Assembly: GCA_009823505.1 (NCBI GenBank)
Contig: VZQC01012261.1
Location: 2,194,279 to 2,258,278, forward strand
DNA length: 64,000 nucleotides
DNA from: Rhizomys pruinosus
Lineage: Eukaryota; Chordata; Mammalia; Rodentia; Spalacidae
Direction: 5' to 3'
Shown piece by piece: positions 1,877-57,661 of the stretch. The first letter of the stretch is position 1. Each line of letters starts with the position of its first letter. The position numbers and the translations under genes are program-made. The notes beneath the pieces are model-generated. The model ran no database searches, was not told the DNA's origin, and saw only the letters and a list, made by a program, of their open reading frames with translations.

Positions 1877-2400
1877 GGCTGGAGAGATGGCTCAGCAGTT
1901 AAGAGCGCTACTCTTGGGGCTGGAGAGATGGCCTGGCGGTTAAAAGCACCGACTGCTCTTGCAGAGGACCAGGGTTCGATCCCCAGCACCCACATGGCAG
2001 CTGAGAACCATCTGTGACTCCAATTCCAGGAGAACTCTAGTTCCAGGAGAATCCGAGACCCTCTTCTGACCTCTGCGGCATTGCATGGCACGGGTGCACA
2101 AACCTACATGCAGACAGTACATTCATACACATTCAAAAATAAAATTTAAAAAAATTAAAAAAAAAAAAAGAGCGCTACTCTTGCAGAGGACCCAGGTTTG
2201 ATTCCCAGCACCCACATGGTGGCTAAGAACCGTCTTCAAGCTTGGTGTGGTGGCACACACCTTTAATCCTAGCACTCAGGAGGCAGAGGCAGGCGGATCT
2301 CTGTGTTAGAGGCCAGCCTGGTCTACAGAGTGAGTTTCAGACCAGCTGAAGCTACAGAGAGACCCTGTCTCAAAAAGACCAAGGAAAAAAAGAAAAAAGA
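1877..2400 (+). mobile_element. Composite SINE (B2 head + B1 body), copy a, with a nested B2
   Basis: The B2-type head (1877-1916 and 2184-2238) is split by a later B2 insertion. After 'gctaagaaccgtcttca' the sequence changes without a tail into a full B1 starting 'agcttggtgtggtggcac' and ending in 'ccctgtctcaaaaagacc'. The same head/body junction recurs in other copies in this window. No clear outer target-site duplication is seen. Confidence 0.8.
1917..2167 (+). mobile_element. B2-type SINE (D) nested in composite SINE
   Basis: Complete copy with A-rich tail, inserted inside the B2 head of the composite. It is flanked by an exact 16-bp duplication, 'aagagcgctactcttg', at 1901-1916 and 2168-2183. 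Confidence 0.95.
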
Positions 2401-4799: not shown

Positions 4800-5110
4800 T
4801 TGTTTTTAATTATTGGGAGAGGGGAGGTTCCATATGCATCCAGTGCCATGGAAGCCAGAAGAGGGCATCAGATCCCCTGCAGTTGGAGGTACAGGCAGTT
4901 CTGAGCTGCCTGATGTGGATGCTGGGAACCACACTCTTGTTTTTTTTTATTTTATTTTATTTTTGGTCTTTGTAGCCCCAGCTGTCCTGGAATTCACTCT
5001 GTACACCAGGCTGGTCTTGAATTCACAAAGATCCACCTGCCTCTGCCTCCCAAGTGCTAGGACCGGCCAGGGAGCCACACTCTTAATGACTGAGCCATCT
5101 CTCTAACCCT
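4800..5110 (-). mobile_element. B2-type SINE (O) split by a B1
   Basis: Reverse-strand copy made of 4800-4938 and 5069-5110. The B1 insert is flanked by 'ggga(a/g)ccacactctt' (4924-4938 and about 5070-5084). Confidence 0.85.
4939..5068 (-). mobile_element. B1 SINE nested in B2
   Basis: Poly-T start, 'ccccagctgtcctgg', then 'ctgcctcccaagtgctagg'. The last 20 or so bases of the reverse B1 are missing. The target-site duplication is given in the host entry. Confidence 0.9.
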
Positions 5111-5157
5111 AGTGCCTCTATTCTCATCAAACCAAACAGCTTTTAAAATGGGCTGGA

Positions 5158-9689: not shown

Positions 9690-9953
9690 CCTTTTTTTTT
9701 TCTTTTTTTTTTTTTTTTTAGATAGGGTCTCCCTATAGCCCCAGCTGGCCTGGAACTTACTCTGAAGACCAGGCTGACCTTGAACTCACAGAGATCCGCC
9801 TGCGTCTGCCTCCCCAGTGCTGGGATTAAAGGGATGTGCCACCACGCCCAGCTTAAAAAAGACAGTTCTTAGCTGCCATGTGGGTGCTGGGAATCAAACC
9901 CAGGTCCTCTGCAAGAGCAGTTGACTCTTAACCACTGAGCCATCTCTCCAGCT
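9690..9953 (-). mobile_element. Composite SINE (B2 head + B1 body), copy b
   Basis: Read on the minus strand, the B2 head (9953-9855) runs to 'gctaagaactgtcttttt' and then straight into a full B1 from 'agctgggcgtggtggcac' (about 9854) to its A-tail (poly-T at 9690-9719). It sits inside the inverted L1 part. A clean target-site duplication is not obvious. Confidence 0.85.
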
Positions 9954-11686: not shown

Positions 11687-12633
11687 NNNNNNNNNNNNNN
11701 NNNNNNNNNNNNNNNNNNNNNNNNNNNNNNNNNNNNNNNNNNNNNNNNNNNNNNNNNNNNNNNNNNNNNNNNNNNNNNNNNNNNNNNNNNNNNNNNNNNN
11801 NNNNNNNNNNNNNNNNNNNNNNNNNNNNNNNNNNNNNNNNNNNNNNNNNNNNNNNNNNNNNNNNNNNNNNNNNNNNNNNNNNNNNNNNNNNNNNNNNNNN
11901 NNNNNNNNNNNNNNNNNNNNNNNNNNNNNNNNNNNNNNNNNNNNNNNNNNNNNNNNNNNNNNNNNNNNNNNNNNNNNNNNNNNNNNNNNNNNNNNNNNNN
12001 NNNNNNNNNNNNNNNNNNNNNNNNNNNNNNNNNNNNNNNNNNNNNNNNNNNNNNNNNNNNNNNNNNNNNNNNNNNNNNNNNNNNNNNNNNNNNNNNNNNN
12101 NNNNNNNNNNNNNNNNNNNNNNNNNNNNNNNNNNNNNNNNNNNNNNNNNNNNNNNNNNNNNNNNNNNNNNNNNNNNNNNNNNNNNNNNNNNNNNNNNNNN
12201 NNNNNNNNNNNNNNNNNNNNNNNNNNNNNNNNNNNNNNNNNNNNNNNNNNNNNNNNNNNNNNNNNNNNNNNNNNNNNNNNNNNNNNNNNNNNNNNNNNNN
12301 NNNNNNNNNNNNNNNNNNNNNNNNNNNNNNNNNNNNNNNNNNNNNNNNNNNNNNNNNNNNNNNNNNNNNNNNNNNNNNNNNNNNNNNNNNNNNNNNNNNN
12401 NNNNNNNNNNNNNNNNNNNNNNNNNNNNNNNNNNNNNNNNNNNNNNNNNNNNNNNNNNNNNNNNNNNNNNNNNNNNNNNNNNNNNNNNNNNNNNNNNNNN
12501 NNNNNNNNNNNNNNNNNNNNNNNNNNNNNNNNNNNNNNNNNNNNNNNNNNNNNNNNNNNNNNNNNNNNNNNNNNNNNNNNNNNNNNNNNNNNNNNNNNNN
12601 NNNNNNNNNNNNNNNNNNNNNNNNNNNNNNNNN
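11687..12633. other. Assembly gap (947 N)
   Basis: An uninterrupted run of N. Long frames drawn through it are meaningless. The two edges together look like one ordinary B1, so the true gap may be far smaller than drawn. Confidence 1.
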
Positions 12634-26048: not shown

Positions 26049-26155
26049 CTGCTCGCTTTGGCAGCACATATACTAAAATTGGAACAATACAGAGAAGATT
26101 AACATGGCCCCTGCGCAAGGATGACATGCAAATTCGTGAAGCGTTCCATATTAAA
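26049..26155 (+). pseudogene. Rnu6-ps: U6 snRNA processed pseudogene
   Basis: About 106 bases match U6 spliceosomal RNA nearly end to end: 'gctcgctttggcagcacat', 'aaattggaacaatacagag', 'cccctgcgcaaggatgac', 'cgtgaagcgttccatatt'. At least four changes from U6 are visible (CGG to TGG near the 5' end, GAACGATAC to gaacaatac, TTAGCATGG to ttaacatgg, GACACGC to gacatgc), mostly C/G to T/A transitions. An A-rich tail and a 12-bp duplication 'aaaagacttcac' (26037-26048 and 26167-26178) mark an L1-type retroposition. There is no U6-type external promoter upstream (no PSE or TATA at the proper spacing), so it is very likely silent. Confidence 0.95.
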
Positions 26156-33120: not shown

Positions 33121-33600
33121 TATTTACCCAAAAGACTCCAAGTACCATATCACAGAGATACTTGAACATCAATGTTTATTACAGCACTATGCACAACAGC
33201 TAAATTATGGAACCAACCTATGCACCCAGCAGAGGATACATGGTTATGGTGGAAGAAAATGTGGTATACAGAAAAAATGAAATTTTTTAGTCACAAAGAA
33301 TGAAGTTATGTCATGTATAGTAAACACACGTAACTAATCATGTTTAGTGAATTAAACTAGTCTCTTCATACATTAAACAAGTATGTTCTCTCTCATTTGT
33401 GGTTCCTATAGTTTATAGAGATACATAAAAGCCCTATCTGTATACATGAAATGAAAGTAAAAGCCAAACTGTCCAGGAGAACAAAGGAGACTAGTAAGGG
33501 GAGGAGAAATAGAGAGTAGGTGAGTAGTGAGGGAAATATGCTCAATAGACGGTATTTATGTACATGAAAACGCCATTATTACACAGTACTAGGTACTATG
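33119..33600 (+). mobile_element. L1 ORF2 3' end and 3' UTR, diverged
   Basis: 'tttattacagcactatgcac' and 'gtggtatacagaaaaaatg' mark the ORF2 C-terminus, followed by an A/G-rich 3' UTR. No intact frame. Confidence 0.8.
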
Positions 33601-35390: not shown

Positions 35391-35533
35391 TGCTGGAGAG
35401 ATGGCTCAGTGGTTAAGAGCACCAACTGCTCTTGCAGAGGACCCAGGTTCAATTCCCAGCACCCACATGGCAGCTAAGACGGGCGTGGTGGCACATGCCT
35501 TTAATCCTAGCACTCAGGAGGAAGAAAAAAAAA
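35391..35533 (+). mobile_element. Composite SINE (B2 head + B1 body), copy c, 3' truncated
   Basis: B2 head to 'cacatggcagctaag' (35478), then B1 from 'acgggcgtggtggcac' to 'cactcaggagg' and an A-rich tail. A 13-bp duplication 'agaaagctactaa' (35373-35385 and 35534-35546) encloses the whole unit, apart from five extra bases at the left edge. Confidence 0.85.
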
Positions 35534-37204: not shown

Positions 37205-37433
37205 GGGCTAGAGAGACGGCTCAGCGGTTAAGAGTGCCAGCTGCTCTTACAGAGGACCCGGATTCGATTCCAAGCACCCACATGGTGGCTAAGAACCGTA
37301 TTTAAGCCAGGAATGGTGGTGCACACCTTTAATTCTAGCACTTAGAAGGCAGAGGCAGGCGGATCTCTGTGAGCCAGCTGGGGCTACAGAGAGACTCTGT
37401 CTCAAAAAGAAAAGGAAAGGAAAAAAAAAAAAA
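37205..37433 (+). mobile_element. Composite SINE (B2 head + B1 body), copy d
   Basis: B2 head 'ggggctagagagacggctc' to 'ctaagaaccgtatttaa', then B1 from 'gccaggaatggtggtgc' to 'ctctgtctcaaaaag' with A-tail. The unit lies between 'gaaaattacagctag' (37190-37204) and its 13/15 match 'gaatattgcagctag' (37434-37448). Part of the B1 centre is deleted. Confidence 0.9.
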
Positions 37434-40044: not shown

Positions 40045-40293
40045 TAACTTTATTTTTTTGAGACAAGGTCTCCCTTTAGTCCCAGCTGGGCCGGAGCTCA
40101 CTATGTAGACCAGACTGGCCTTGAACTCACAGAGATCCATCTGCCTCTGCCTCTTGAGTGCTGGGATCAAAGGCGTGCACCACCACACCTGGCCTAAGAT
40201 GGTTTTTAGCTGCAATGTGGGTGCTAGGAATCAAACCCAGATCCTCTTCAAGAGCAGTCAGTGCTCTTAACCACTGAGCCATCTCTCCAGCCC
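40045..40293 (-). mobile_element. Composite SINE (B2 head + B1 body), copy e
   Basis: On the minus strand: B2 head from 'ggggctggagagatggctc' to 'cagctaaaaaccatctta', directly followed by a full-length B1 'ggccaggtgtggtggtgc' and its A-run. The flanks share only about 'gtaact', so the target duplication is weak. Confidence 0.87.
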
Positions 40294-47360: not shown

Positions 47361-47752
47361 GGGCTGGAGAGATAGCCTAGCGGTTAAGAGCAACAGCTGG
47401 GCATGGTGGCATGCGCCTTTAATCCTAGCACTTGGGAGGCAGAGGCAGGCGGATCTTTGTGAGTACAAGGCCAGCCTGGTCTACAGAGTGAGTTCCAGGA
47501 CAGCTGGGGCTACATGGAGACCCTGTCTCGAAAACACCAAAAAAAAAAAAAGCACCGACTGCTCTTGCAGAAGACCCGGGTTCGATCCCCAGCACCCACA
47601 TGAGGGCTAAGAACCGTCTGTAACTCCAATTCCAGGAGAACTCCAGTTCCAGGGGAATCCAAGACCCTCTTCTGACCTCCGAGGCAATGCATGACATGGG
47701 TGCACAGACCTGCATGCAGACAGTACATTCATACACATACAAAAATAAATAA
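47361..47752 (+). mobile_element. B2-type SINE (D) split by a B1
   Basis: Head 47361-47393, remainder from about 47553. Near consensus otherwise. Confidence 0.95.
47394..47552 (+). mobile_element. B1 SINE nested in B2 head
   Basis: Complete with A-tail. Short duplication 'aa(g/a)agca' on each side. Confidence 0.94.
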
Positions 47753-47760
47753 AATTTAAA

Positions 47761-53676: not shown

Positions 53677-53784
53677 ATAAAATACTCATTTCTTAATTAT
53701 GTTTACCTCTATATGGCAGCATGAAAAAAACTTTATAGCATTAAGGAAAAAAGGTTTTAAGTACAAAAGTATAATACTCTTTCT

Positions 53785-53994
53785 TGAGACAGGGTCCCCC
53801 TTTAATCCCAGCTGGCCTAGTGCAAGCTATGTAGACCAGGCTGGCCTTAAACTCACAGAGATCTGCCTGCATCTGCCTCCCGAGTGCTGGGATTAAAAAC
53901 ATGTGCCACCACACCTGACTTAAAGACATGTGAGTGCTGGGACTCAAACGCAAGAGCAGTCAGTGCTCTTAACCACTAAGCCATCTCTCCAGCC
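53785..53994 (-). mobile_element. Composite SINE (B2 head + B1 body), copy f
   Basis: On the minus strand: B2 head 'ggctggagagatggcttag', shortened, to 'cacatgtcttta', then B1 from 'agtcaggtgtggtggcac'. The 12-bp flanks 'aatactctttct' (53773-53784) and 'aatactttttct' (53995-54006) enclose the whole unit. Confidence 0.88.
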
Positions 53995-57422: not shown

Positions 57423-57661
57423 TTCTTTTTTTTTTTTCTTTTTTCATTTTGAGACAGGGTCTCCCTGCAGCCCCAGCTGGCCTGGAACTCAACTCTGTAG
57501 ACCAGGCTGGCCTTGAACGCACAGAGATCCACCTGCCTCTGCCTCCTGAGTGCTAGGCTTAAAGGTGGTTCTTAGCTGCCATGTGGGTGCTGGGAATCGA
57601 ACCTGGGTCCTCTGCAAGAGCGGTCGGCACTCCTAAGTGCTGAACCATCTCTCCAAGCCCC
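57423..57661 (-). mobile_element. Composite SINE (B2 head + B1 body), copy g
   Basis: On the minus strand: B2 head to 'cagctaagaaccaccttta', then B1 sequence 'agcctagcactcaggagg' to its A-tail; the first B1 bases are deleted. Exact 15-bp duplications 'caaagttcttaattt' (57408-57422 and 57662-57676) enclose head and body together. Confidence 0.92.

Follow-up and report, generated by a model that had tools for sequence, protein, structure and literature searches.

The repeat at 37205..37433 raises the question of whether a B2-type head that passes without an A-tail into a B1 is merely a contact between two neighbouring repeats or a single element that moves as one unit. B2 is tRNA-derived and bears a pol III promoter, while B1 is 7SL-derived, and the window (the whole 64-kb stretch of DNA that was analysed) is dense in SINEs, with dozens of B1 and B2 matches. 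A reading of the sequence alone had pointed to seven places where a B2 head runs into a B1 without an A-tail. All seven hold (J1 and J2 denote recurrent junction types, described below):

1877..2400, plus strand: composite SINE (J1), head interrupted by a full-length B2 that inserted later (about 1917-2166)
9690..9953, minus strand: composite SINE (J1), seam TCTTTTTTAAGC
35391..35533, plus strand: composite SINE, a short B1 piece followed by an A-tail
37205..37433, plus strand: composite SINE (J1), B2 head at 37205-37305, B1 body from 37306, A-tail
40045..40293, minus strand: composite SINE of the J2 junction type (CATCTTAGGCC)
53774..53994, minus strand: composite SINE, B2 head with an internal deletion, seam J1-like, body markers as in J2
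57423..57661, minus strand: composite SINE, part of the B1 5' end absent

Two of these places are composites as proposed, with some correction: that at 1877-2400 is one unit into which a full-length B2 later inserted, and that reported as 53785-53994 starts at 53774 and has lost an internal part of its head.

Structure of the copies in the window

The B2 part of the window copies is the head, of about 101 bases and in some copies with deletions, and it matches solo B2 copies whose sequence after CTTTAA goes on as CTCCAGTTCC. Wherever the seam is intact, the B1 part begins at its own first base (GCCGGGCG); deletions cross the seam in the 35391 and 57423 copies. The seam letters are of the J1 type with decay in the copies that begin at 1877 (CCGTCTTCAAGC), 9690 (CTGTCTTTTTTAAGC), 37205 (CCGTATTTAAGCC) and 53774 (TGTCTTTAAGTC), and those of the 40045 copy (CCATCTTAGGCC) represent a second recurrent type, J2, with the body markers CATAG/AGCTCC/GACTAAAGGG.

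We also note short composites, in which the B1 body ends after about 25-46 bases and an A-rich tail follows (35391-35533 in the window, and the copies L051 and L067 elsewhere). Two further candidates, at 5112-4967 and 47361-47760, were dropped as composites and are B1 elements nested in B2. For the first of these, at about 4967-5112, AAGAGTGTGG flanks the B1 only (judged by eye), in contrast to the composites. The window further contains a run of N at 11687-12633 (an assembly gap) and, at 26049-26155 on the plus strand, a U6 snRNA-like sequence (Rfam RF00026, 99.8 bits) that is either a gene or a retrocopy.

Target-site duplications enclose the whole unit

Enclosing duplications had been claimed at 35.4, 37.2, 53.8 and 57.4 kb, and each of them was found again: an exact 13-base duplication AGAAAGCTACTAA (13/13) around the 35391..35533 copy, where 5 extra bases precede the head; GAAAATTACAGCTAG / GAATATTGCAGCTAG, with 13/15 bases alike, around the entire unit at 37205..37433; AGAAAAAGTATT / AGAAAGAGTATT (11/12) around that at 53774..53994; and around that at 57423..57661 the reported exact 15-mer, AAATTAAGAACTTTG (15/15). 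The candidate duplication of the 9.7-kb copy (AAAAGGACAATATAA / AAAAGGACAAATAA) and the weak one of the 40.0-kb copy (AGTTAC) are merely plausible and fall below score 6 in the stricter test that follows; the 1.9-kb copy has no clear target duplication.

The stricter test covered 74 copies, namely the 7 of the window, 27 similar to the 37.2-kb copy (L002-L028), 2 from a 200-kb sample and 38 chosen by pattern (13 J2, 6 J3 and 19 J1), with A discounted in the score and the expectation taken from 5,402 swapped pairs. A duplicated insertion in L046 was entered once, L085 was left out as equal to L084, and L055 was left out on account of N in its 3' flank. At a score of at least 8, duplications enclose the whole unit in 27/74 copies, with 1.0 expected, as compared to 0 around the B1 only and 2 around the B2 only. 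At a score of at least 6 the whole-unit figure rises to 44/74 (7.6 expected), with 3 B1-only and 6 B2-only cases, and by group to 29/48 for J1, 7/13 for J2, 4/6 for J3 and 4/7 for the window; from score 7 upward, B1-only duplications number 0/74. A first scoring, which gave 45/75 at score 9 with a swapped control of 10.3% and 0 B1-only cases, was replaced because of the A-rich background. In 15 of the 44 the duplication starts with A directly after T (counted by eye), an arrangement that is frequent at L1 targets.

The whole-unit duplications lead us to conclude that the unit retroposes whole and is a composite tRNA/7SL SINE, as the sequence-only reading had held. It had also stated that duplications around one part alone would refute this view, and at score 8 these amount to 0/74 for the B1 and 2/74 for the B2.

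Seams and copy number across the genome

The same reading had proposed a genome-wide search for the junction. In the 3.67-Gb assembly, a strict pattern (18 B2 bases ending in AAGAAC, then 0-30 bases of any sequence, then 12 B1 bases) found 3,035 seams, a lower bound given that the pattern is exact, while the same pattern read backwards found 0. Among the 100 matches listed, 70 are J1 (TCTTTAAGC), 18 J2 (TCTTAGGC), 6 J3 (TCTTTAGTGC) and 6 other or tied; the three seams differ from one another by a few letters only. The claim that the switch is the same in most copies stands in so far as the gap is exactly 12 in 69 of the 100 listed seams, but the copies show three or more junction types rather than one. 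Scattered junction positions, named beforehand as refuting a mobile unit, are absent, as 94 of the 100 listed seams fall in three types.

A variant pattern with CTGAGAAC replacing CTAAGAAC had 133 matches genome-wide, and the 100 listed comprise 52 J1, 24 J2, 7 J3, 4 tied and 13 other, several of the last being sporadic joins elsewhere in B2. Sporadic B2-B1 contacts do occur, yet they are rare. A search seeded with the 37.2-kb copy yielded 6,761 first-look candidates, of which 40 were scored; all 40 span the seam, a result that the query biases and that includes the query copy itself. The seam and B2-head patterns had 0 matches in viral_contigs and genome_contigs, which left no other rodent to compare with there.

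Copy number was gauged from 20 samples of 10 kb each (200 kb in all), chosen before reading on contigs with earlier matches, which contained 3 composites (a single duplicated insertion accounts for 2 of these), as compared to 63 B1 and 78 B2 BLAST hits. One unclear case, at position 978 of L042, was left uncounted. As a rough figure resting on three copies, this would put the genome at about 10,000 to 100,000 composites; with 7 in 64 kb, the window is rich in them. The duplicated insertion lies in a direct 2.4-kb duplication of L046 (3554-5920 and 7586-10000, 94.9% alike) with a composite SINE in each copy. On contig C20, L084 and L085 lie about 16.5 kb from each other and are identical over 367 bases, which points either to a regional duplication or to a repeat in the assembly.

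These results bear on two simpler readings of the seam. Chance adjacency in SINE-rich DNA might be suggested by the dozens of B1 and B2 matches in the window and by the sporadic joins at other B2 positions, but the fixed seams, the 3,035 copies and the enclosing duplications refute it. Alternatively, a B1 might have inserted directly in a B2 at a TTAA target, the nested pair then being copied up to the B1 A-tail, and the window does contain nested B1-in-B2 pairs, at 47361-47760 and at about 4967-5112. When a B1 inserts normally into a B2, about 7-20 more B2 bases are left ahead of the B1, since insertion duplicates the target, so that the head should reach about 7-20 bases past TTTAA. However, a control pattern that starts further along B2 (CTCCAGTTCCAGGGG), for a head extended past TTTAA, has 3 matches genome-wide (a raw count, unscaled to the abundance of the control word), and the B1-only duplications expected of such an insertion are 0/74 at score 7 or more and 3 at score 6. 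We disfavour this reading and consider it most improbable.

We conclude, with very little room for doubt, that this muroid rodent carries a mobile composite SINE family of at least thousands of copies, which supports the earlier interpretation of a fused mobile unit. The family combines a recurrent seam between tRNA-type head and 7SL-type body, insertion as one unit (27/74 at score 8), and high copy number with subfamily markers of its own (3,035 copies; a marker T in 28/43 bodies vs 4/67). Our overall explanation, to which we give a probability of roughly 0.85, is that the composite consists of nucleotides 1 to about 101 of a B2d-type SINE followed by a B1 with its own A-tail.

The parent B2 and its internal TCTTT

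Among the 92 B2 copies of the window and the 200-kb sample, the CTCCAGTTCCA block is kept in 84, neither form is seen in 8, and an 11-bp deleted form is present in 0. The spalacid Nannospalax galili is reported to have B2d and no other B2 subfamily, and the first ~101 bases to be very similar across all five B2 subfamilies (PMC8466645). On these grounds a spalacid host is a possible lead. The same source describes TCTTT as a pol III terminator of B2, located at the 3' end of the element. The sequence-only reading had not remarked that the seam of the composites falls on an internal TCTTT of one B2 subfamily, nor that heads ending there have retroposed alone, and we suggest that TCTTT may also stop transcription inside the B2 head.

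Solo parent B2 with this motif (TCTTTAACTCC) has 25,704 exact matches genome-wide, and the terminator-free form TCTGTAACTCC is more numerous at 33,126. CTG stands at the place of the terminator in 3 of the 100 seams listed (two CTGTAAGC, one CTGAGGC). TCTTT (or TTTT) is present at the seam in 43/48 J1 copies, and is absent from the seam in 14/14 J2 copies, but these were picked by their seam. As J1 retains the terminator, read-through must be assumed; that J1's own seam TCTTT should stop part of its transcripts counts against a model in which the terminator made the head.

Heads ending in TCTTT plus at least 10 A have 10 matches genome-wide, a count that covers TCTTT ends only and gives no measure of an excess there. 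Five of them, with heads of about 101 bases (L089, L090, L092, L097 and L098), have exact duplications of 10, 18, 15, 17 and 13 bases, respectively, which sit right after the A-run. In a swapped-pair control, matches of at least 9 bases arose in 6/90, the longest being 13 bases, which the B2 head that comes next in L094 probably explains. Given exact duplications in 5/10, at least five TCTTT-ended B2 heads have retroposed with an A-tail; in these five head-only copies, a B2 RNA with its end inside the element was retroposed on its own. Three other matches begin with a head and an A-run, after which AAGAA..T(C)TT recurs; the sequence then goes on as a J1 body in L091, as the 3' half of a B2 in L093 and as a J3 body in L096. 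They look as if RNA-level jumps or slippage had joined a terminated head to a further RNA. The last two of the ten, L094 and L095, have a nested or complex structure.

One fusion or several

Beyond what had been noted for the window, J1, J2 and J3 have different B1 types, as seen when their consensus sequences and marker sites were compared. J2 bodies have CATAG in 12/13 and TAA in 13/13, J3 bodies CAGAG in 5/5 and TAA in 4/5, and J1 bodies mostly CAGAG, AGTTCC and TAT or TAC. The T in GGCTATAGGG is found in 28/43 readable J1 bodies vs 4/67 solo B1 (Fisher p 2e-11, a guide only, as the copies are related and were partly picked by similarity). Solo B1 of the AGCTCC/TAA type make up 10/69; 5 of these have the CATAG of J2 and the other 5 the CAGAG of J3. 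The head differs too, position 34 being T in 12/14 J2 and 6/6 J3 as compared to 13/48 J1 (8/19 of the pattern-picked J1).

We lean slightly towards more than one fusion. The competing view, somewhat less probable in our judgement, is a single fusion, with J1, J2 and J3 as later subfamilies of one composite lineage whose body changes came about by ordinary mutation or by exchange with solo B1. The resemblance of the three bodies to different solo B1 types speaks against it: of the consensus sites, 4 join J1 with young solo B1 and J2 with old solo B1 (only two of the four are independent, because the other two helped define the solo groups), 0 join the composites, and 1 crosses. So does head position 34, with T in 18/20 J2 and J3 vs 13/48 J1. 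The three seams, on the other hand, differ so little in their letters as to favour one event, and the 53.8-kb copy joins J1-like seam letters to a J2-like body. A tree of 132 bodies, 63 of them from composites, over 131 columns (too short to separate one from several origins) tolerates a single fusion also: with all composites held as one clade it is not rejected (p-AU 0.658), and the constrained tree even has a likelihood above that of the free tree. Composite and solo B1 labels cluster on the tree, with 27 changes against a shuffled mean of 43.2. From the tree and the body markers together, both several fusions and one fusion with later change or exchange therefore stand.

How the head and body may have been joined

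The seam at a known B2 terminator hints at how such hybrids arise. We propose that the internal TCTTT of the parental B2 subfamily would yield head RNAs of ~100 nt, and that L1 reverse transcriptase, having copied a B1 RNA to its 5' end, may jump to the 3' end of a terminated B2-head RNA. Alternatively, the B2-head RNA might be ligated to the B1 RNA. Both a template jump and a ligation route have been described for L1 chimeras (PMC13174262). B1 nucleotide 1 at the J1 seam is expected under a jump, because the enzyme would run to the end of its first template. The resulting composite would start with the B2 promoter and end with the B1 A-tail, such that pol III would start at the B2 promoter, read across the seam into the B1 and stop in flanking DNA, with L1 proteins presumably priming on the B1 A-tail. 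This joining of head to B1 was perhaps repeated.

We regard an RNA-level fusion at the terminator as having about even odds. The fuller proposal, that an internal terminator which arose in one B2 subfamily steadily supplied promoter-bearing head RNAs of ~100 nt which L1 repeatedly grafted onto whichever B1 was then active, is more tentative; if it is true, new SINE families would repeatedly be born at terminators within existing SINEs.

An origin at the DNA level, in which a B2 tail received a B1 insertion and a deletion between the internal TCTTTAA and a similar sequence of the tail removed the B2 3' half before amplification, seems unlikely to us. Its starting material is common in mouse, with 17,757 B2-B1 tandems, and the published tails of B2a and B2b have a terminator before the A-run (PMC8466645). 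It requires, however, that the B1 landed no more than two bases from the repeat, and that this happened three times or was followed by further edits to account for J1, J2 and J3, and the retroposed heads ending in TCTTT plus an A-run point to RNA.

Comparison with known composite SINEs

Chimeric tRNA/7SL SINEs are already known, and the unusual part here would be the origin at a terminator. B2d (B3) supplies the head, about its first 101 bases, and in the composite a B1 replaces the B2 3' half; with B1 the composite shares the body from the first base and the A-tail, to which it adds a foreign tRNA-type promoter head. ID is the head of B4, and a composite of that kind was considered and rejected here by comparison with B2 sequence, as over ~101 bases the head aligns with B2, and with solo copies that go on as B2 beyond that point. 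B4 of rodents, already invoked as an analogue in the sequence-only reading, is indeed a chimeric SINE of tRNA-derived and 7SL-derived (B1) parts (PMC5744160, PMC5199112); by its description it resembles a fusion of B1 and ID (PMC5744160), as compared to the B2 head of ~101 nt found here. The Tu type SINEs of the tree shrew and GarnAlu of the bushbaby are likewise tRNA-derived and 7SL-derived fusions (PMC7245038), set apart by their descriptions as having other hosts and other parents.

In the portions available to us of the open-licence PMC literature, no family with a B2 head and a B1 body was seen, and a named entry in Repbase, Dfam or SINEBase is possible. A repeat library that lacks the composite would annotate every copy as one B2 plus one B1, and the counts of both families would be wrong. 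Terminator-ended heads retroposed alone, the likely source material of the fusion, survive beside the product, which makes models of SINE birth testable.

Nearest in that literature are the B2-B1 tandem dimers of mouse, with the same parents in the same order, of which 17,757 were counted (Vassetzky et al. 2021, PMC8466645); the authors could not separate tail insertion from complex SINEs and put the dimers aside. Unlike those dimers as described, the composites have a tail-less seam inside B2 and duplications that enclose the unit, and a tandem formed by tail insertion was rejected for them, as the seam lies at B2 ~101 without an A-tail or the B2 3' half. With regard to the question left by the mouse dimers, one large class in this genome is a true composite with fixed seams.
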